From: Solirubrobacterales bacterium
GTDB lineage: Bacteria > Actinomycetota > Thermoleophilia > Solirubrobacterales > 70-9
DNA: 64,000 bases
Assembly (NCBI GenBank): GCA_020438355.1
Contig: JAGQUT010000001.1
Location: 62,001-126,000, forward strand
Direction of reading: 5' to 3'
The notes beneath the pieces were generated by a model, which saw only the letters and a list, made by a program, of their open reading frames with translations, searched no databases and was not told where the DNA came from. Below, one piece after another: positions 7,240 to 62,180 of the stretch; the stretch's first letter is position 1; every line of letters starts with the position of its first letter. A program made the position numbers and the translations under genes.

Positions 7240-9594
7240 TCAGGGCCGTACGATGTCGCGGTCTCCGGGGGCCCGCGTCAGGTGAAACCTGAGCAGTCCG
7301 GTACGGCACTTGAACGAGCCGTCCTCGCCATAGGAGAAGTCCTCCTTGCCCCAGTAGGTGACGTAGATGTGACGGTCCGTCTTCCTCGCCTTCATCCAGC
7401 CATCGGCGTAGAACCCGAACCCGTCCCAAAGATCGAACTCCACTTCCGCCCTGCCCCGACGGTCGAAGGCGAGACTCTCGTCGAAGGTTGACGATTCGTG
7501 GAAGCCGTCCCGAACTGCCCCGTGATTCCAGCCCGAGCACCTGTACCAGACCGATACGCGGCCGGCCGCCCAGCGGTTACCGTCCATCCAGACCTTGCCC
7601 CGGGCCTTTCGGTTATCGACCGTGTAGGTCTGCCGGGCGGCGATCGGAGGCCCGGGATCGATCGAGTCATCGCCCTTGCCTCCGACCAGGAGGTCGGGAC
7701 CTTTGCCGCCGCTCAGATAGTCATCGCCGTCCCTGCCGAAAAGCCGGTCCGGGAGCGAGTTGCCTTCCAGGATGTCGTCCCCGGGCCCTCCGTCGAGAAC
7801 ATCGGCCAGCCTTCCGCCGATCAGTCGGTCGTCCCCGGGGCCTCCCCTAAGCCGCGCTTTGGTTGCGTAGTTTCGAAGAACATCGGCACCAGGCCCGCCA
7901 TCCACGACCGAGTCCCCCGTGGCTACCGCGGTGACAACGTAATCGGCTCCGGCACCGGCGAGGACCCTGGCCGAGCTGGCGTGAATCGTGCGAATCGTGT
8001 CCCTGCCCGGTCCGGCTTCGATCCTTCCACCGGCCCTGATCGAGTCGTCGCCGGTACCCCCATGCACCGAGGTCCAGTTGCCGCCGCCGCGCATCTCGTC
8101 ATTTCCGGGGCCGAGGCATACCAGGGACTTCAGGCCGGCCCTCACCTTGTCGTCACCGGGGCCGGCGACGATCACCGAGTCGAAACCTCCCTCGATGACG
8201 TCGTCTCCACTGGTCCCGACGATCGTGGCGCGCCTTCCCTTGCAGTACTGAGGCTCGCCTTCACCCCCCGCGAAGCGCCGCAACTCGATCTGCCACCGTC
8301 CGTCCCTGATCGACGTTGCCGCCACGGTGACGCCGCCATCCGGTTCGATCACGGACGTAGCCTCGATGATCCCGCGACGCTGTCTCATCAGGTCGTTGGA
8401 CAGCCGATCGCCCAGTCCTGCGGTAGCGACCCCGTCCCTGGTCCAGGTGGCATCGAGGGTGCCGTCCCGCTCGTACCGGGAAACGACGAACTGCCTCTTG
8501 CCTCCGGAGTTGGCGGTTCCGGAGATGATCATCCGGCCCCGACCATCCAATTCGACGTCGCTCATGCTGAGAGAACGTGATTTAGAGATCTCCGCGACCG
8601 CCCAGGTTTGTTCACTCGGGAAGAGCCGGCCGGTCCGGCCAACCCGTCTGAAGAAGCTTGTCGTCACCAGGTAGGTCCGGTCCGGTGCCTCGATGATTCG
8701 GCCGCGATTGGTAACCGCCACCTCACCGGCCCAGATTCCCAGGGAGACCAGGCCGTCGTCCCCGAATCCGCGGTCGTATTCGCCGGTGGCCGAGAACCTC
8801 TGAAGTACGTCATCCCGGGTTGGCTGGGGCTCTCCGTAGAACACGCTGTCGCGGCTCCGCACCAGGATCCGGTCCTTGCGATCCATGCCCAGGGCGCTGG
8901 GTCTTTCGCCCGGGTTCCGGCCCGCGGCGATGGTGACCAAACCACCATCCCCGTAGCTCTCGTCGGTCAGGCCGTCAGGGGAGAGTCGAAACAGGAGAAC
9001 ATTGCCGCAACGGTGGCGGCCCTGCGCGGGTGCCGCGGGCCGCTTCGTCGTACATCCCAGGACGGTCACACCGGCAACGATCCGGCCCTGACTGTCGATA
9101 CCCGGTCCGGTCGTTTCAAGAGTCTGCTCTTCGAGTTCTCCGAATCTGGAGAGTACATCCAGTGAGGCGATCCCCTGGTCAGCGAAGCTCTCATCCAGGG
9201 TCCCGTTCGCTTCGAACCTCGCCACTGCCGCGTTCGGTCCGACTCGCCCGAAGGCGATGATCCTGTCGTCCTGGAAGGAGAGCTTCGACCACTGCGAAGT
9301 GGGAGTGAGCACGAGGCCATCGCCATCCCCGAAGGCCGGATCGGGGCTTCCGTCGGGTAGTAGCCGGTAAAGGAAGCCGTTCTGGTCCGGGGTCGCGCCT
9401 CCGGAGAGGAGAAGCTTCCCGTCGGGCGTGCGGACCATGTCCCTCACGACCATCTTCTGGCCGGGGCTCGGTGAAAGGACGACGCGCCCATTCGTCCCGA
9501 ATCCTGCGTCGACCGAACCAGGCGCGGCCTCTGCAACGGCCGAAGTGGAGAACGCGAGAGCCGCAGCTGCAGCGCAGGTGACCAGTAACTTCAT
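7240..9594 (-). CDS. Secreted delta-60 repeat and RTX (calcium-binding) protein
   Basis: I start it at ATG 9594, which has a strong GGAGG 5 bases upstream; this gives about 784 residues with a signal peptide (MKLLVTCAAAAALAFSTSAVA). Residues about 25-430 are delta-60 repeats (GSVDAGFGTNGRVV and variants), which form a beta-propeller. About 440-660 hold degenerate haemolysin-type nonapeptides such as GGPGDDRLIGG and GRDGDDYLSGG, which bind calcium in beta-rolls. The last 130 residues are a separate Trp/Tyr-rich domain (WYRCSGWNHGAV, YVTYWGKEDFSYG) that I do not recognise. Probably extracellular or surface-bound; no enzymatic motif was seen. Confidence 0.85.
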   Translation of the reverse strand: MKLLVTCAAAAALAFSTSAVAEAAPGSVDAGFGTNGRVVLSPSPGQKMVVRDMVRTPDGKLLLSGGATPDQNGFLYRLLPDGSPDPAFGDGDGLVLTPTSQWSKLSFQDDRIIAFGRVGPNAAVARFEANGTLDESFADQGIASLDVLSRFGELEEQTLETTGPGIDSQGRIVAGVTVLGCTTKRPAAPAQGRHRCGNVLLFRLSPDGLTDESYGDGGLVTIAAGRNPGERPSALGMDRKDRILVRSRDSVFYGEPQPTRDDVLQRFSATGEYDRGFGDDGLVSLGIWAGEVAVTNRGRIIEAPDRTYLVTTSFFRRVGRTGRLFPSEQTWAVAEISKSRSLSMSDVELDGRGRMIISGTANSGGKRQFVVSRYERDGTLDATWTRDGVATAGLGDRLSNDLMRQRRGIIEATSVIEPDGGVTVAATSIRDGRWQIELRRFAGGEGEPQYCKGRRATIVGTSGDDVIEGGFDSVIVAGPGDDKVRAGLKSLVCLGPGNDEMRGGGNWTSVHGGTGDDSIRAGGRIEAGPGRDTIRTIHASSARVLAGAGADYVVTAVATGDSVVDGGPGADVLRNYATKARLRGGPGDDRLIGGRLADVLDGGPGDDILEGNSLPDRLFGRDGDDYLSGGKGPDLLVGGKGDDSIDPGPPIAARQTYTVDNRKARGKVWMDGNRWAAGRVSVWYRCSGWNHGAVRDGFHESSTFDESLAFDRRGRAEVEFDLWDGFGFYADGWMKARKTDRHIYVTYWGKEDFSYGEDGSFKCRTGLLRFHLTRAPGDRDIVRP

Positions 9595-9699
9595 TGTTCC
9601 TCCCGGGGTTGGCGCGGAATCCTGTCCGCGATGCAGCATGAAACCGCCGAAACTGCCCGGGTTGCGGTCAGACTCGCCAACGGCAGGCGATTCGGTTTC

Positions 9700-13839: not shown

Positions 13840-15534
13840 TTATCTCCGGACTACCTTGATGCGGTAGCGGGTGTCGTTGCCTGCCTGGGTGCTGCTGGGA
13901 GCGAGGGCAAGCCAGATCGTCTGGGCCCGCTTCTTCAGGTTCCGCACCACGATTCCCTCGGTCTTGGGGTAAGGCCGGTTAGAGCGGACGATCAGATTAT
14001 TCCCGGGCTTGCTGATCGTCTTTGCCTGGGGCTTGAGGGCCGACAGGACGATGTCGCCCTCGAGCTGGCCAACGTTGACGACGATCCTCCGCCTCGCAGG
14101 AATCATCACCCGGTAGACATCCGCCGGATCCTTGGCGCGGGAAAGCGTTGCGTTGAGAAGTCGCCGCTTGCCCACCCCTGCCTTCCACAGGAAAGGTGAC
14201 TTCGGCTTGACCAGGGTGCCGTTTATCCACTTGATGTCGTCATTTGGCTCGTAGGGGTCAAGCGGAGGATTCGGTGCCGTGAGGCTCGACTCGATGCTGA
14301 GCAGGCCTTCTCCATAGTCGGAGTCGCGCCCCGGCTCGCCGAGGTCGGTGGCCGAGGAGGTCAGGAGGCTCGCGATCTGGAGGTTTCCAAGCTCGGGTCG
14401 CGCCTGCTTGAGCCATGCGGCCGTGGCCGAAACCATTGGTGCGGCGAAGCTCGTTCCGCTCAGATAATCCCAGGTGCGTTCGATGCCTCCGGCGTTCTGC
14501 CTGACGTTCGGGGCGTACACCGATGCGCCCGGCGCAACTATGTCCACTCCTGCGTTCCGGGTCGAGAAAGGTGCGAGCACCGACTTGTCGTCGACGGCAC
14601 CTACCGAGATCACATGAGGATCGACTGCCGGTCGCATCGGGGCGTTGCCCGAGTCCCCGGAGTTGCCGGCCGCGGCCACCGGGATCGACCCCTTCCGGAC
14701 CGCGTACTGGGTGGCGACGAAATGAGTGAAACAGGACCTGGCGGGCAGTGTGTAGCTCATGTTGATCACAGCCGCCCCCTTGTTTGCGGCCTTGGTCACG
14801 GCCTTCGATGCGGTCGAGCAGGTCAGGCCCGAGGCAAACAGCTGCATCCTTGCACCGGGCCATACGCCGCGGATTCCTTGATCCTCGCCGGGCGAACCGA
14901 TGATCCCGGCGATTGCGGTGCCGTGCCAGTCGGCATCCGGGCCGAGGGACTTCGATCCGGTCAGGTTGGCCGCCAGAAGGTCCGGGTGAAGCGGGTCGAG
15001 GGATTCCTCGACTACGGCGATCAGCGGGCTCTGGCCGGTGACTGCAGGGGGAGTCACATCACCCGGGTTGACGATCCGGTCGAGCCACCACTGCTCCGCA
15101 GAATATTTGTCTGTTGGGTAGCCGCTGCGAGTGACCGGCACATCCGGCTCGGCGTAGACGAGCTGGCCGGCCGACCTGAGGCGGCTGGCCAGCCGGTTTG
15201 CCCTGTTCCTGGGCACCCGATAGCTGCCCAGGCGAGCGCCGATCTCCCTGGCACCAACCGATTCCGCGATGCGGTCTGTGGTCGGCCCCGGGATGCCGCC
15301 AACGATCCAGCCGCTGCTGCCGGCGCCAGCGCCGGTGGAACTGGCGCTCGCATTGGAGGGAAGGATCATCGGTGGCTGGGAGCCCGAGGAGGCCCGGGCA
15401 TTACCGCCCGTGACAAGCCCGAGAAAGACCAGTCCGAGGAGCACGGACAGCAGGAGGTATCCCGGCAGGCTGCCGATACCCCCGGCCAGCCTCGCTGGCC
15501 GACCTTCCCCAGTCTGATTCTCGAAAAGATGCAT
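13840..15534 (-). CDS. Secreted or membrane-anchored subtilase (S8) with Asp-to-Glu change in the triad
   Basis: From ATG 15534 this is a 564-residue protein with one N-terminal hydrophobic segment (GYLLLSVLLGLVFLGLV, about 25-41), then an I9-like propeptide (about 75-135) and a subtilisin domain (150-400). His is in DWHGTAIAG (H204), the oxyanion Asn in AAGNSGD (N291) and Ser in SGTSFAAPM (S362). Where DTG or DSG should follow IAVV the protein reads EES, so the catalytic Asp is Glu176, with an unaltered LDPLHPDL after it. The C-terminal 160 residues resemble a pre-peptidase beta domain. An upstream ATG at 15579 is possible. Whether it is active is uncertain. Confidence 0.88.
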   Translation of the reverse strand: MHLFENQTGEGRPARLAGGIGSLPGYLLLSVLLGLVFLGLVTGGNARASSGSQPPMILPSNASASSTGAGAGSSGWIVGGIPGPTTDRIAESVGAREIGARLGSYRVPRNRANRLASRLRSAGQLVYAEPDVPVTRSGYPTDKYSAEQWWLDRIVNPGDVTPPAVTGQSPLIAVVEESLDPLHPDLLAANLTGSKSLGPDADWHGTAIAGIIGSPGEDQGIRGVWPGARMQLFASGLTCSTASKAVTKAANKGAAVINMSYTLPARSCFTHFVATQYAVRKGSIPVAAAGNSGDSGNAPMRPAVDPHVISVGAVDDKSVLAPFSTRNAGVDIVAPGASVYAPNVRQNAGGIERTWDYLSGTSFAAPMVSATAAWLKQARPELGNLQIASLLTSSATDLGEPGRDSDYGEGLLSIESSLTAPNPPLDPYEPNDDIKWINGTLVKPKSPFLWKAGVGKRRLLNATLSRAKDPADVYRVMIPARRRIVVNVGQLEGDIVLSALKPQAKTISKPGNNLIVRSNRPYPKTEGIVVRNLKKRAQTIWLALAPSSTQAGNDTRYRIKVVRR

Positions 15535-15639: not shown

Positions 15640-16299
15640 ATGCCATATCCCGAAGCAGTCCTGTTCGACAACGACGGCCTCCTGCTGGACACCGAGGCTG
15701 TCTGGAGCAGGGCGGAGCAGAAGCTCTTCGAGCTTCGAGGCAGGGAATTCACGATCGAGCACAAGCGCAGCCTGGTTGGCTCATCGGCACGAATCGCCGG
15801 GCAGAAGCTGGCCAGATTCCTTGACGAGCCAGGCCACGAAGTCGAGCTGATGGATGAACTCAACGAGCTCGTCCTGGCCGAACTGGAGGGCGGGGTCGAC
15901 GCGATGGTAGGGGCCCGGGAGCTGGTTGAGCTCTTGCGACTGGCCGGGGTTCCCGTGGCACTGGTCTCAAACTCGCCGCGCCGCTTCATCGAGCGCTCAC
16001 ACGAAGTGGCTGGAACAGGATCGCCTTTTGACGCTGTGATCAGCGGACACGAGGTGCCCGAGGCGAAGCCCGCTCCCGACGCCTATCTGGAGGGCTGCCG
16101 GCAACTGGGGGTCGAACCTGGAAAGAGGGTGATCGCTCTCGAGGACTCTCCCTCGGGCGTCACCGCTGCGGTCTCGGCCGGCCTCTTCACGATTGGCATC
16201 CCTTCGGTTCCCGGGATCGACCTGAGGCATGCGGACCTCGTGGCCTCCTCACTGGAGGATGAAGCGGTCCTTCACGCCCTCGGCATAGAGACCCGTTAG
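15640..16299 (+). CDS. HAD-superfamily phosphatase (beta-phosphoglucomutase/GPH-like)
   Basis: A 219-residue haloacid dehalogenase-fold enzyme. Motif I is LFDNDGLLLDTE with both aspartates. An alpha-helical cap covers about 20-85. Motif II is ALVSNSPRRF, motif III lysine is in EAKPAPDAYL, and motif IV acidic residues are in ALEDSPSGV. This is the beta-phosphoglucomutase-like subfamily, which dephosphorylates or isomerises small phosphosugars; the substrate cannot be assigned. The gene is divergent from the subtilase and followed within 2 bases by the end of a convergent gene. Confidence 0.9.
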   Translation: MPYPEAVLFDNDGLLLDTEAVWSRAEQKLFELRGREFTIEHKRSLVGSSARIAGQKLARFLDEPGHEVELMDELNELVLAELEGGVDAMVGARELVELLRLAGVPVALVSNSPRRFIERSHEVAGTGSPFDAVISGHEVPEAKPAPDAYLEGCRQLGVEPGKRVIALEDSPSGVTAAVSAGLFTIGIPSVPGIDLRHADLVASSLEDEAVLHALGIETR

Positions 16300-16301
16300 G
16301 G

Positions 16302-17147
16302 CTACAGACTGAGAATCCGGCGGCGCCGGATCACCCGCTCGGCGACGTTCAGCGCCTCTTCAAGCAGTTCGACGTCGCCGTCCTGGGTCTTACCCTCGGC
16401 GGCGCGACCTGACACCCCTTCAAGACCGGGAATGAGCTCTTCGAGCCTGTCCAGGTCCTTTTCGTGACCTTCGTCCTCGACCGCGAACTCGAGTTCGCTG
16501 ATCGTCGCCCCCACTGCTCCGGCGATCGCGAGGCGTGCTGCAGCACCGTTTCCGTTGGTGAGGTCGAATCTGATTCTGGGTATGGCAACCTCGCAGGCGG
16601 TGGCTGGTTCCCGTCCTCCGAGGACTGCTGCGGTGCGGGCGAGGGGGCCGTTCCGGGCAAGCTTCTCCCGGCGCTTTTCGCCGGTTCCGCCTCTCGCGTC
16701 GACATCGACCGCTTCGAGATAGCGGCCTGATGCCACCTGGTCGCCATCGCCGTAGCCGATTCGCGCCGCCAGGATCGAAGCGATCTCGGTAGGCGTGCCG
16801 AAAGGGATGCCCGAGGAAGCTGCGTCAGCGGCCCGGACACGGTCAAGGGTCTGAATGGCGTCGTCGAGAACTTCGCCGGTCACTTCCGACTCCTCCATCG
16901 TCCTGAGCCAGGAGTCAGCGTCGTTTTCGGCGCTGAACGGTTCATCGGCCCTGATCACTGTCACCACGGCGATGCTCACTGTCACCGGCTGCTCTCGCTG
17001 GGTCGCTTTACGCGGTCGACGCCGGCGCCGCCGTGCCGGGGGCAGGGCTCCTTCCGTCTCGGTCACCAGGACCCTCTCGGCCGGTCCCGAGCGGACCATG
17101 TAGCGACCATCGTCGATTGGCAGGCTGCCCGCCAACTCGAACTGCAC
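16302..17147 (-). CDS. Hypothetical protein downstream of the cell-wall hydrolase
   Basis: A 281-residue soluble protein with a GTG start at 17147. Residues 37-46 are an Arg-rich patch (ARRRRRRPRK), followed by a beta strand TVSIAVVTVIRADEPF and a mostly helical remainder rich in Glu and Ala. The end is basic (ERVIRRRRILSL). I recognise no family or catalytic motif. It begins 26 bases after the multidomain hydrolase on the same strand and is probably co-transcribed. Composition is like its neighbours, with no sign of transfer. Confidence 0.7.
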   Translation of the reverse strand: MQFELAGSLPIDDGRYMVRSGPAERVLVTETEGALPPARRRRRRPRKATQREQPVTVSIAVVTVIRADEPFSAENDADSWLRTMEESEVTGEVLDDAIQTLDRVRAADAASSGIPFGTPTEIASILAARIGYGDGDQVASGRYLEAVDVDARGGTGEKRREKLARNGPLARTAAVLGGREPATACEVAIPRIRFDLTNGNGAAARLAIAGAVGATISELEFAVEDEGHEKDLDRLEELIPGLEGVSGRAAEGKTQDGDVELLEEALNVAERVIRRRRILSL

Positions 17148-17173: not shown

Positions 17174-19762
17174 CTAGTTGCCTTCGTCCTCGTCCGACTT
17201 GACCGGAAGTGAGTCATCGGAGGGGACGGTCGGGACGTCGGGGTTCGTGATCTGGCCGAGGCGTTCGGTCAGCTGTTCCCACTGCTCGGCTCCGAGCGTG
17301 GAGGCGATCGAGCCGCCCGGCTCATCAGAGCCAGCCATCGGGCTGAAACCAACGTGGAGGTGGTCGCCGTGGTCGCCCATCGCGAAGCCGGCCGGCTGCG
17401 GGTACTCCATCAATGAGATCACTTCGTCCGGGGCCATGGTGCCCTGCAGCGTGAGCACGAGGCGGGCGACCTGGTCGGTGAGCGATCCGGGGCCCTGGGT
17501 GGCCGGGGTGACGACTTCCCCGTTGATCGCGGCGATGTCGATCGCTGATCCGCGGGTGTGGTTGGAAACGTTGCCGGAAGTTGTTATTGATGATTCACGG
17601 CCGCAGAGCATGGAGGTGATCAGCATCGAGTAGCCGTTGGCGGTGATGAACTCGATGGTCGCGAGGATGCGGCGGTCGATCGAGCCGCTGGCGATGTAGT
17701 CACGGTCGCACTGCTGGCTGAACTCGACTTCCTGATTGTTCAGGACACGCTTCTGGAGCGCCGACTTGGAGAGGAGCAGGATGCCGCCGACTCCGAGGCG
17801 GCTTGAGAACCTGTCCTTGCCGGTGGCGCTGTAGATGTTGGTTTCAGCAAGGAGCTTCCAGCCGTCCAGGAAGGGCTTGGGGTCGATCTGCGGGGTGTCT
17901 TCTCCACCCGGCTTGATCGAGAAGTTCACCGAGGCAACGGAGGTTTCGGCGAGCCGGCCGAGCACGGTACCGGCGATCACGTGGGCACCCTTCTTCAGTT
18001 CGAAGAGGTCGGTGGTCTCGGGGTCGAACCGGTAGATGCCGGACTTGCTGCCGTCATAAATCAGGTAGTCACCGGGCTTGCCTTCGATCCCGATGCCTTC
18101 CGACTGGCGGACCGAGTTCTCAAGCGACTGGCCGTCGGTGCTGGCCCGCTTCTGGTTGCTTGGACGCAGCGGACTGGCGTAAACCCGGCCGCGAATGTCC
18201 TCGGAATTGTTCTCCGAGGAGTCGGGCACCTGGGCGATCTGTTCCTGTTCGCTGCGCCGCTCATCGGCAGCGGCCACCATCGGGTCTTCAGGCTGGTCGG
18301 CGGTCGCGGCGTCGGTCGCTGCCGCATCGGCTGCGTTGGGGTCGACCAGGACCTCGCTGATGTTCTCCTTTTCCTTCTCGGTCGGCGGACGGGAAGTCTC
18401 ATCCTCTACCTGAGGGTTAGCTCCAGCATCCTCTCCAGGGGGAGCGACCGGCTGGTCGGTCGCCTTTTCCTCTCCCATTTCAGCATCCGGGTCTGGCTTC
18501 GGTTCAGCCCCGTCGTCCGTCGTGTCATCCGTGTAACCGAGATCCGATTCCTCGGAAACCAGTGAGGAAGTCTGCTTCGGCTGCGGGACCGGGTAGACGG
18601 TGGAGACTGATCCGAGTCCCGCGTACGAGTAACGGTTGCCGTATGCGTCCTCGAGGACGACGGTGCCGGTTTCCTGGTTGATCTCGACGATCCGCCCGTC
18701 GTTGACCGCGATCACGGGAGATCCCCCGGAAGCCGAGATGGCGATGGTGCGCCGATCCGCAGAAGACTCGATGTTCTGGGAGGCGGTTCCGTTCTGCCTG
18801 GCGGCTTCGGTGGAGACCTGACCCTCGTAATTGGCATCCGCCGAGGCAACCGGGAAGCGGGCCCCTTCAGTCAGTCCGGTTAGCGCACTGATCATCTCCT
18901 GCGGAATCTGGGAGTAGATCTTGGCGTACTTGAGGATCTTCTGGACGTACCAGTCGGCGTGGTTGTAAGCGAAGATCGCGTCGTAGGGACTCTCTTCGTA
19001 GCCGAAGTAGTCGAGGTAGTTCGCGGCGGAGCAGATTGCGTCGACCGGGTTGTACGGGTCCCGTACCTTGTCGCCGTTGGCATCAACGCCCCACTCGGCC
19101 CAGGAGGCGGGCATGAAGGCCATCCATCCGTTGGCGCCAGCGGACGAGGTGGCCACGTTGGTACCGAAGCTGGTCTCGTTGCGATTGATCGAAGCGAGCA
19201 CATACCAGGGAATTCCGTACTGGCTTCCGCAGGCCTGGTAGATGGGGAGGAGGAAGGGCGGGATCTCGAACTGATCAATCACGAAGTTGGGCACGGTCAG
19301 CGCATCCGACTCCATCGGGTCGGAACTCACGTTGCTGCCGGGGCCGACCCCGCCGTTCAGGTTCGGGTCTTCTTCGACGAAGTCAGGCTCGCTTCCGTCG
19401 GGGGTGATTTCGCCGCCGCTCTGGTCGGGATCGATGACCCCGTTGGTGCCGGTTCCCCCAGTCGGCGCCGGAGCCACTCCGCCGGTCCCACCAGTCCCGG
19501 ATCCGGTGTTTCCGGTGCTCCCGGTTTGGCCCTGTCCGGAAGGTGCCGGGGTTGTGGCGGGGGCGGCGGTCTGAAGGTCGGTCGCAGCGGGAGTGGTCTC
19601 GTTCCCGTTCGCGGCGTAACAGGACGCCGAGCCGGGAGCGCAGGGGACGGGTGTCGAACGGGCGACCGAAGAGTTGGCCGCAAACCAAGTCAGGGAGCCG
19701 AAAAACAGCGCGAAAAACAGGACCGCGAATTTGGCGGTCGGCGCGATGCGGCGTGTAGTCAT
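17174..19762 (-). CDS. Multidomain cell-wall hydrolase: lytic transglycosylase, two M23-like and one M15/VanY-like domain
   Basis: 862 residues from ATG 19762 (AGGTGGA upstream), beginning with a signal anchor (FAVLFFALFFGSLTWFAA). A Gly/Thr/Pro linker (about 50-140) precedes a goose-lysozyme/SLT-type domain at about 160-290: the catalytic Glu is in INRNETSFG, followed by SSAGANGWMAFMPASW. Two LytM/M23-like modules follow (GSPVIAVNDGRIVEI; KKGAHVIAGTVLG) that appear to lack zinc ligands, separated by a long acidic linker. The C-terminus has HTRGSAID and GDHGDHLHVGF, the metal motifs of M15/VanY carboxypeptidases. It should cut both glycan strands and peptide stems outside the membrane. Confidence 0.85.
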   Translation of the reverse strand: MTTRRIAPTAKFAVLFFALFFGSLTWFAANSSVARSTPVPCAPGSASCYAANGNETTPAATDLQTAAPATTPAPSGQGQTGSTGNTGSGTGGTGGVAPAPTGGTGTNGVIDPDQSGGEITPDGSEPDFVEEDPNLNGGVGPGSNVSSDPMESDALTVPNFVIDQFEIPPFLLPIYQACGSQYGIPWYVLASINRNETSFGTNVATSSAGANGWMAFMPASWAEWGVDANGDKVRDPYNPVDAICSAANYLDYFGYEESPYDAIFAYNHADWYVQKILKYAKIYSQIPQEMISALTGLTEGARFPVASADANYEGQVSTEAARQNGTASQNIESSADRRTIAISASGGSPVIAVNDGRIVEINQETGTVVLEDAYGNRYSYAGLGSVSTVYPVPQPKQTSSLVSEESDLGYTDDTTDDGAEPKPDPDAEMGEEKATDQPVAPPGEDAGANPQVEDETSRPPTEKEKENISEVLVDPNAADAAATDAATADQPEDPMVAAADERRSEQEQIAQVPDSSENNSEDIRGRVYASPLRPSNQKRASTDGQSLENSVRQSEGIGIEGKPGDYLIYDGSKSGIYRFDPETTDLFELKKGAHVIAGTVLGRLAETSVASVNFSIKPGGEDTPQIDPKPFLDGWKLLAETNIYSATGKDRFSSRLGVGGILLLSKSALQKRVLNNQEVEFSQQCDRDYIASGSIDRRILATIEFITANGYSMLITSMLCGRESSITTSGNVSNHTRGSAIDIAAINGEVVTPATQGPGSLTDQVARLVLTLQGTMAPDEVISLMEYPQPAGFAMGDHGDHLHVGFSPMAGSDEPGGSIASTLGAEQWEQLTERLGQITNPDVPTVPSDDSLPVKSDEDEGN

Positions 19763-19911
19763 TGAACCCTGGTCCACCTTTGGCTTCCCAACTAAAACAG
19801 ACGCGGCCGACGCCCTCCCGTGACGCGGCAAGAGAACCGTATCGCAACGGCTTTCGCCGGCACTCCGACACTTCCTGCCGGGCTCTGCCGGCACCCCTCC
19901 GGTTTCCCCTT

Positions 19912-61281: not shown

Positions 61282-62180
61282 GCAACGAAGCCATCACCGA
61301 CTACCACCTGCACCTCCGGGGCGATGACCTTGGGGCGAGGGCAGACGAGTACTTCACCGCCGAGAACATCGAGCGATACCTCGAGGGGGCGAGGGCGGCG
61401 GGAGTTACCGATCTGGGCTGCGCTGAACACATGTATCGCTTCACGGAAGCCCTGACTGTCTGGCGCCACCCATTCTGGGACGAGTGGGCGATTGATGACA
61501 TCGACCAGTACGTGGAAGTCGTGAAGGCAAGCCCGATCAAGCTTGGCATCGAAGGCGACTTCATTGCCGGAGCAGAGGAGAAGCTTGAGGCAATGCTCGG
61601 CTCGAGGCCTTTCGACTACGTGGTCGGTTCGGTCCACTTCCTCGGCGACCGTTCCCTCGACACCGAGGAATACACGATCTGGGACGAAGCCCGGGATCCA
61701 GACGACATATGGCGTCGCTACTTCGAGACGCTTGCCGATGCGGCCAGATCCGGTCTTTTCGACATTCTCGCCCACCCTGACCTGGTCAAGGTGTGGGGCC
61801 GGGCGGGCAGGCTCCCATCGGTCGATCCCCGGAAGATGTACGAGCCGGCTATCGAAGCCATCGCCGAGTCCGACATCGCCGTCGAGGTTTCGACCGCCGG
61901 ACTGAGAAAAGGGGTGGGTGAGATCTACCCCTCTCCGGCCTTCATGGAGATGTGTGTCGAGGCGGGTGCAACCTTCGCCCTCTCATCCGACGCCCATGAA
62001 CCCGCCCAGATCGGTTTTCGGTACGAAGACGGTCTAGAATTCCTTGCCAGGCACGGTGTAACCGAGATAGCTACCTTCGAAGGTCGGGAAAGGACATCCC
62101 GGCCGATTGGTGTTCTCGGGACCCCGAACACGCAACGAAAATCCATTTTTGGGGCCGGTGAGGCTCCGGGGGAACAATGA
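61278..62180 (+). CDS. PHP-domain phosphoesterase (histidinol-phosphatase-like)
   Basis: 300 residues with a TTG start overlapping the ispD stop. PHP motifs: DYHLHLRGDD (first HxH), GCAEHMYRF, the Glu-containing LGIEGDFIAG, VVGSVHFLGD, DILAHPDLVKVWG, and SSDAHEPAQIG. These bind the trinuclear metal site. Nearest family is HisK-type histidinol-phosphatase, but no his genes are near, so another phosphoester is possible. Its stop overlaps the next ATG. Confidence 0.87.
   Translation: MSNEAITDYHLHLRGDDLGARADEYFTAENIERYLEGARAAGVTDLGCAEHMYRFTEALTVWRHPFWDEWAIDDIDQYVEVVKASPIKLGIEGDFIAGAEEKLEAMLGSRPFDYVVGSVHFLGDRSLDTEEYTIWDEARDPDDIWRRYFETLADAARSGLFDILAHPDLVKVWGRAGRLPSVDPRKMYEPAIEAIAESDIAVEVSTAGLRKGVGEIYPSPAFMEMCVEAGATFALSSDAHEPAQIGFRYEDGLEFLARHGVTEIATFEGRERTSRPIGVLGTPNTQRKSIFGAGEAPGEQ

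Follow-up and report, generated by a model that had tools for sequence, protein, structure and literature searches.

Glu serves as the third member of the catalytic triad in other folds, namely, in acetylcholinesterase and in picornavirus 3C. Among prokaryotic subtilases, an E-H-S set was reportedly defined by Siezen et al. in 2007, and one subset is said to have Glu where the catalytic Asp would be. In our search of the literature on Glu-for-Asp subtilases, pseudoproteases, and sedolisins, in which the bacterial family was not sought by name, the only E-H-S enzyme met was SprP of Pseudomonas aeruginosa (PA1242; residues E262, H299, and S499). Citing Siezen et al. 2007, the available part of PMC3937732 places SprP in the "E-H-S family of subtilases." It reports that SprP made in E. 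coli is an active protease, which clears skim milk and hydrolyzes Suc-AAPF-pNA, and that the S499A substitution abolishes this activity; Ser was the residue mutated, and no mutation of the Glu appears in that part.

The term "E-H" occurs 0 times in the accessible text of PMC9549277, where the triads named are only D-H-S and S53, as they are in the accessible text of PMC11593635, and the portion seen of PMC2605481 has nothing on E-H-S enzymes. In the seen portion of PMC5371821, fungal genes that aligned ambiguously near the catalytic residues were treated as pseudogenes, and a filter of that type could remove E-H-S-like enzymes. Subtilase pseudoproteases with real functions are likewise on record, as excerpts of PMC6636752 describe.

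We analyzed a 64,000-nucleotide stretch of DNA from a Solirubrobacterales bacterium (positions 62,001 to 126,000 of contig JAGQUT010000001.1), referred to here as the window. It contains a subtilase gene with the following layout and neighbors:

13840..15534, minus strand: S8 subtilase gene, 564 amino acids, with ATG at 15534 and stop at 13840-13842
15391..15534, minus strand: putative signal peptide or membrane-anchor region, residues 1-48, judged by eye from a hydrophobic run at about 25-41 and A-R-A at 46-48
15115..15312, minus strand: predicted I9-like prodomain, residues 75-140, proposed from AlphaFold2 (AF2) elements and the conserved WIVGG...YAEPD
14275..15039, minus strand: S8 catalytic domain, residues 166-420, from PF00082 at 168-410 and Foldseek
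13843..14274, minus strand: beta-rich C-terminal domain with DPYEPNDDI, residues 421-564, from AF2 strands of low pLDDT
11687..13693, plus strand: 3-hydroxyacyl-CoA dehydrogenase/enoyl-CoA hydratase gene, a conserved neighbor
15640..16299, plus strand: HAD hydrolase gene, a conserved neighbor

The M1-H2 start is kept in the close homologues L033 (74%) and L034 (72%). An upstream GTG at 15762 was rejected as the start because it would overlap the HAD gene and the homologues retain M1-H2. Peptidase_S8 (PF00082) was the sole Pfam match, covering residues 168-410 with an E value of 5.2e-39 and 134.7 bits (cut-off, 21.8), and the PDB sequence matches listed for the protein were subtilisins and their kin. 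The AF2 model, computed from an 18-row alignment, had a mean pLDDT of 65.8, with a better value for the catalytic core. In Foldseek it matched fervidolysin and subtilisins, with TM-scores by target length of 0.74 to 0.78 for the single-domain subtilisins. Judged by its sequence, the window protein is an S8 homologue that lies outside the D-H-S set.

The flanking parts of the protein are less well defined. AF2 placed a helix of low pLDDT at residues 26-39 of the N-terminal region, and in the predicted prodomain it gave strand 75-80, helix 84-92, strand 104-108, helix 109-121, and strand 125-131. Pfam searches run separately on the prodomain and on the C-terminal domain yielded no match for either, and the names of both domains are ones that we infer; the C-terminal domain (residues 421-564, with DPYEPNDDI) may be PPC-like, to judge by its resemblance.

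The residues around the active site were assigned as follows:

15007..15009, minus strand: Glu176, codon GAG, at the subtilisin Asp32 position in alignments to Carlsberg and BPN'
14995..14997, minus strand: Asp180, the equivalent of BPN' Asp36 in the MAFFT alignment and not the triad acid
14923..14925, minus strand: His204 (His64), from the alignments
14662..14664, minus strand: Asn291 of the oxyanion hole (Asn155), from the alignments
14449..14451, minus strand: Ser362, the nucleophile (Ser221), from the alignments

The original prediction was that this gene has a single E-for-D change, with Glu at the position of the catalytic Asp, in an S8 core that is otherwise complete and retains His, Asn, Ser, and a trailing HPDL. 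The alignments bear this out. Against the PDB sequence of subtilisin Carlsberg, the first E of VVEES falls on the D of AVLDTG, which is D32; the MAFFT alignment with BPN' pairs E176 with D32, H204 with H64, N291 with N155, and S362 with S221. HPDL is common to D-H-S subtilases. In the AF2 model, strand 172-176 terminates on E176 and H204 opens helix 204-213, as expected for residues at these positions. The protein consequently departs from the classical Asp-His-Ser triad by the Glu in the Asp32 column, and it has the residues of an E-H-S subtilase, namely, Glu at that position with His and Ser retained. It is no pseudoprotease in the sense of having lost the nucleophile or the base: H204 and S362 are present in 16 of 16 sequences from the genus that carry the Glu and are both lost in two others, L020 and L021.

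An orthologue was found in 18 of the 18 genomes of the genus examined, in searches of 151 genomes and of the genus. Sixteen of these, the window included, have the Glu together with His, Asn, and Ser. In three of the sequences (L010, L014, and L018), which are cut by contig ends, all four positions are still visible. Ten of the 16 encode the Glu with GAA and 6 with GAG. A sequencing error or private mutation was ruled out, since 16 of 18 genomes share the Glu and use both codons. At the four catalytic positions, L020 (from G007) and L021 (from G016) read Ala, Phe, Asp, and Ala (AFDA); both occupy the same syntenic place.

The dehydrogenase and HAD genes flank the subtilase in 8 of 8 genomes of the genus inspected, both triad-less ones among them (G012, G009, G002, G016, G007, G014, G005, and that of L034, whose protein scores the same as the one of G006). 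Of 6 regions from outside the genus, 0 had the subtilase between these flanks, and one of the 6 (L259) is a short contig; in another region outside the genus, L262, a 30% dehydrogenase match lies some 4 kb from the subtilase. The two syntenic orthologues that have lost all four catalytic residues lie at L020:1017-2714 (plus strand) and L021:1483-3180 (minus strand), with a catalytic-domain dN/dS of 0.13 between them. It is credible that both are conserved pseudo-subtilases with a noncatalytic role.

Several other genes deserve mention. Two further S8 proteins of the same genome (L316 and L317) have an ordinary Asp (VIDTG and VIDSG) with His and Ser, among those that were readable. Within the window, a 799-amino-acid open reading frame (ORF) at 7240-9639 (minus strand) contains RTX calcium-binding repeats and DUF5122 propeller repeats. 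A 906-amino-acid transglycosylase (SLT) with a weak M23 match lies at 17174-19894 (minus strand) and is adjoined by a 281-amino-acid ORF without any Pfam match at 16302-17147 (minus strand). Homologues of the 906- and 281-amino-acid ORFs occur near the subtilase locus in several genomes of the genus.

Over the 16 sequences with Glu, 78 of the 256 domain columns are invariant, including E176, H204, N258, S260, N291, and S362, and 8 of the other 15 share just 46 to 57% identity with the window protein. N258 and S260 are the counterparts of Asn123 and Ser125, which the available part of PMC11593635 assigns to the acid-base zone, and they too are lost in L020 and L021. The fold alone does not keep His, Asn, and Ser in place, because they are gone together with the Glu in these two orthologues. 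Across the sequences with Glu and with Asp, 37 columns are invariant, 10 of which are broken in both triad-less sequences. For the core catalytic columns the figure is 5 of 8 versus the overall 10 of 37 (P = 0.02), a modest excess in columns that were picked afterwards.

Pairwise dN/dS (Nei-Gojobori, catalytic domain) was 0.12 to 0.19 in seven pairs with Glu, 0.13 in the triad-less pair, and 0.15 to 0.38 in four pairs with Asp, values that are rough, as dS was often near 1. Purifying selection shows that a gene is in use and says nothing for catalysis. The AFDA pair lacks the triad and is equally constrained. Thus, the protein can serve a purpose without being a catalyst, and a low dN/dS is no argument for activity.

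The rarity of the Glu form was assessed in 396 genomes of the phylum with a DNA motif encoding E-x-x-[VIL]-D-x-x-H-P-[DE] preceded by two T-centered codons. This motif is limited to subtilases that have Asp36 and HP[DE], so that other E-H-S enzymes, perhaps SprP, escape it; on these terms it matched at 22 places in 21 of the 396 genomes. Three places lay in S8 frames: one in the window, one in G002, which belongs to the same genus, and one in G191. Against the remaining 19 stand 11 matches of a reversed-pattern control. In S8 frames, therefore, the motif was confined to the genus of the window and a second lineage with Glu. The Asp version matched in 107 of 198 genomes, and 28 of 30 such loci that were fetched had HGT or HGS and AGN downstream, 26 of them with GTS as well.

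A profile search of 399 genomes of the class matched 254 at E ≤ 1e-30; the loci returned were supplemented with 100 of the listed places. One hundred forty-nine nonviral sequences were distinct over residues 166-420. At the four catalytic positions 113 of them read DHNS, 18 EHNS, 2 AFDA, and 2 ARDH, and 14 were incomplete. Thirty-six of 63 viral sequences were DHNS; in another 2, Asp, His, and Asn were present and the Ser lay out of reach; the Asp column was missing from 25; Glu at the Asp32 position was found in none of the 63.

Two of the 18 EHNS sequences (L164 and L169) came from another order-level group (f5 g61). Their genus had the gene at E ≤ 1e-40 in 2 of 20 genomes. When the phylum sample was queried with one of the two, 11 of 396 genomes yielded relatives at E ≤ 1e-30, and the ones listed belonged to the same class. 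An apparent Asp-Trp before the His of L164 and L169 proved, from the full sequences, to be an artifact of insert columns. Inspected by eye, L164, L169 (the frame of which runs to the contig end), and L185 showed no prodomain, and L143 has one. A second, separate loss of the whole triad (to Ala, Arg, Asp, and His) is found beside L164 and L169, in L185:269-1885 (plus strand) and L202:1-1500 (minus strand).

In tree A, L164 and L169 grouped with this ARDH pair at 100/99, and the Asp form L143 stood outside at 95/81; in tree B the values were 99/96 and a weaker 89/74. The 16 Glu sequences from the genus of the window grouped with the AFDA pair at 100/99 in both trees; the Asp form L019 branched outside them at 94/90 in tree A and at a weaker 86/64 in tree B. 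Taken alone, the 16 formed one group at 100/97 (tree A), 96/95 (tree B), and 70/29 (another tree). In AU tests of groups named after the first tree was seen, a single clade of all 18 Glu sequences was rejected (p = 0.031), as was one of all four triad-less sequences (p = 0.0013). As far as the sequences indicate, the simplest count would be two changes to Glu and two whole-triad losses in the class. A single origin of Glu followed by two reversions to Asp is compatible with the AU test and less simple, since it needs more changes.

We consider it probable that the gene encodes a secreted, prodomain-bearing S8 protease with a putative Glu176-His204-Ser362 triad and Asn291 in the oxyanion hole; secretion, prodomain processing, and peptide-bond cleavage by the window protein are steps that we infer. 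Glu176 would do the work of Asp32 by orienting His204 and compensating its charge, and His204 would activate Ser362. The Asp-to-Glu change may have arisen in a common ancestor of the genus, or of most of it, with selection maintaining it ever after. This reading is favored because the E-H-N-S combination occurs in 16 of 18 genomes and is invariant even though eight of the sequences have diverged to 46 to 57% identity, because the Glu is kept through synonymous change, and because both lineages pair Glu plus His, Asn, and Ser with triad-less forms that have Ala. The dN/dS of the seven Glu pairs and, by analogy, the precedent of SprP, active with its Glu and dead as S499A in the part of PMC3937732 cited above, point the same way. 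Other observations count against an active enzyme. Both Glu lineages are sisters of triad-less lineages, which would also fit weakened catalysis; the second Glu lineage shows no prodomain; the triad-less AFDA pair is equally constrained; and the excess of broken catalytic columns is modest.

It is possible, if rather unlikely, that the protein is instead a weakened or noncatalytic subtilase kept mainly for binding, like CspA and CspC, in which Glu176 would allow at most residual activity, e.g., a single prodomain cleavage. Such a role would suit a locus where two orthologues have lost the whole triad and still evolve under purifying selection, as well as the sister relation of both Glu lineages to triad-less ones; functional subtilase pseudoproteases are known (PMC6636752, in the part seen). 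However, His, Asn, Ser, and the equivalents of Asn123 and Ser125 are intact in 16 of 16 Glu sequences from the genus and in both from f5, and are lost in the triad-less ones. CspC and CspA are mutated at two catalytic residues, unlike the window protein, according to the same portion of PMC6636752. The original prediction had suggested an altered pH range, weak activity, or a binding role; none of these follows from E-for-D alone, SprP being active with its Glu (PMC3937732, available part).

A doubtful proposal is that the Asp-to-Glu change detunes the triad while His, Asn, and Ser stay, after which the same locus can give rise to a conserved triad-less protein, the Glu forms being snapshots on the way to pseudoenzymes. 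This overlaps both the active and the weakened readings, and the likelihoods of readings that overlap in this way do not add up to one. The twofold sister grouping of Glu and triad-less lineages, the Asp form next outside each pair, and the rejection of single clades of either kind agree with it. However, changes from Asp to Glu and from Asp to Ala on two separate branches fit equally well, and the Ala codons (GCT, GCG, GCG, and GCG) do not decide the state at the fork. There are two cases only, with AU-test groups chosen after the first tree. If the proposal were true, the genus would be a natural enzyme-to-pseudoenzyme series at one syntenic locus.

That another carboxylate is the triad acid and Glu176 incidental is very improbable and was rejected on the alignment columns and the AF2 strand position: Asp180 is near Glu176 in sequence but falls in the Asp36 column and is Asn in L015 and L018, so that the outcome named beforehand as refuting the prediction did not occur; Asp202 is invariant over the 16 Glu sequences but corresponds to BPN' residue 62, two before His64, and is no replacement acid, because 52 of 164 ordinary D-H sequences (duplicates and viral ones included) have Asp in that column as well; and in the model neither lies on the end of strand 172-176, where Asp32 belongs.

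With the favored reading of an active Glu triad, the window protein can be set beside the known systems. It shares its fold, His64, Asn155, Ser221, and HPDL with the D-H-S subtilases (BPN', Carlsberg, and fervidolysin, 1r6v) and differs from them by Glu for Asp32 and by E-S for T/S-G at positions 33-34. T7SS mycosins were ruled out, since the best NCBIfam match, TIGR03921, scored 138.4 bits, about half of its cut-off of 278.75; Pfam scans of seven neighboring ORFs of the window found no type VII secretion parts. In S53 sedolisins, too, a Glu takes part in the triad, and the original prediction had drawn that analogy. It is misplaced, since the S53 Glu is the base in place of His rather than of Asp, with the acid on the same helix (PMC11593635, as far as available). 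His204 of the window protein is intact and PF00082 is its sole Pfam match, so that membership in S53 was ruled out. CspC and CspA of Clostridioides difficile resemble L020 and L021 as subtilase scaffolds able to lose catalysis; they have two mutated catalytic residues and a jelly-roll insert (PMC6636752, part seen), whereas the window protein retains His and Ser.

The closest likeness is to the E-H-S set and SprP: an S8 protein with an N-terminal signal, putative in the window protein, and Glu for the catalytic Asp, His and Ser being retained. SprP differs in having a DUF domain between the signal and the S8 domain and in the spacing of its E-H-S residues (262-299-499 versus 176-204-362). The Glu of the window protein probably has an origin separate from that of the E-H-S set, because it sits in a clade whose next relatives have Asp. 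Its spread through most of the genus and its recurrence in a second lineage suggest that the swap is evolutionarily stable, and the variation is probably compatible with the protease activity predicted for the window protein. Since triad-less orthologues occupy the same syntenic locus, close homologues can be used to test how an enzyme becomes a pseudoenzyme. Glu for Asp in subtilases is not new in kind but a rare and already described variation, to which the present analysis adds a probable second origin of the Glu and natural triad-less controls at the same locus.
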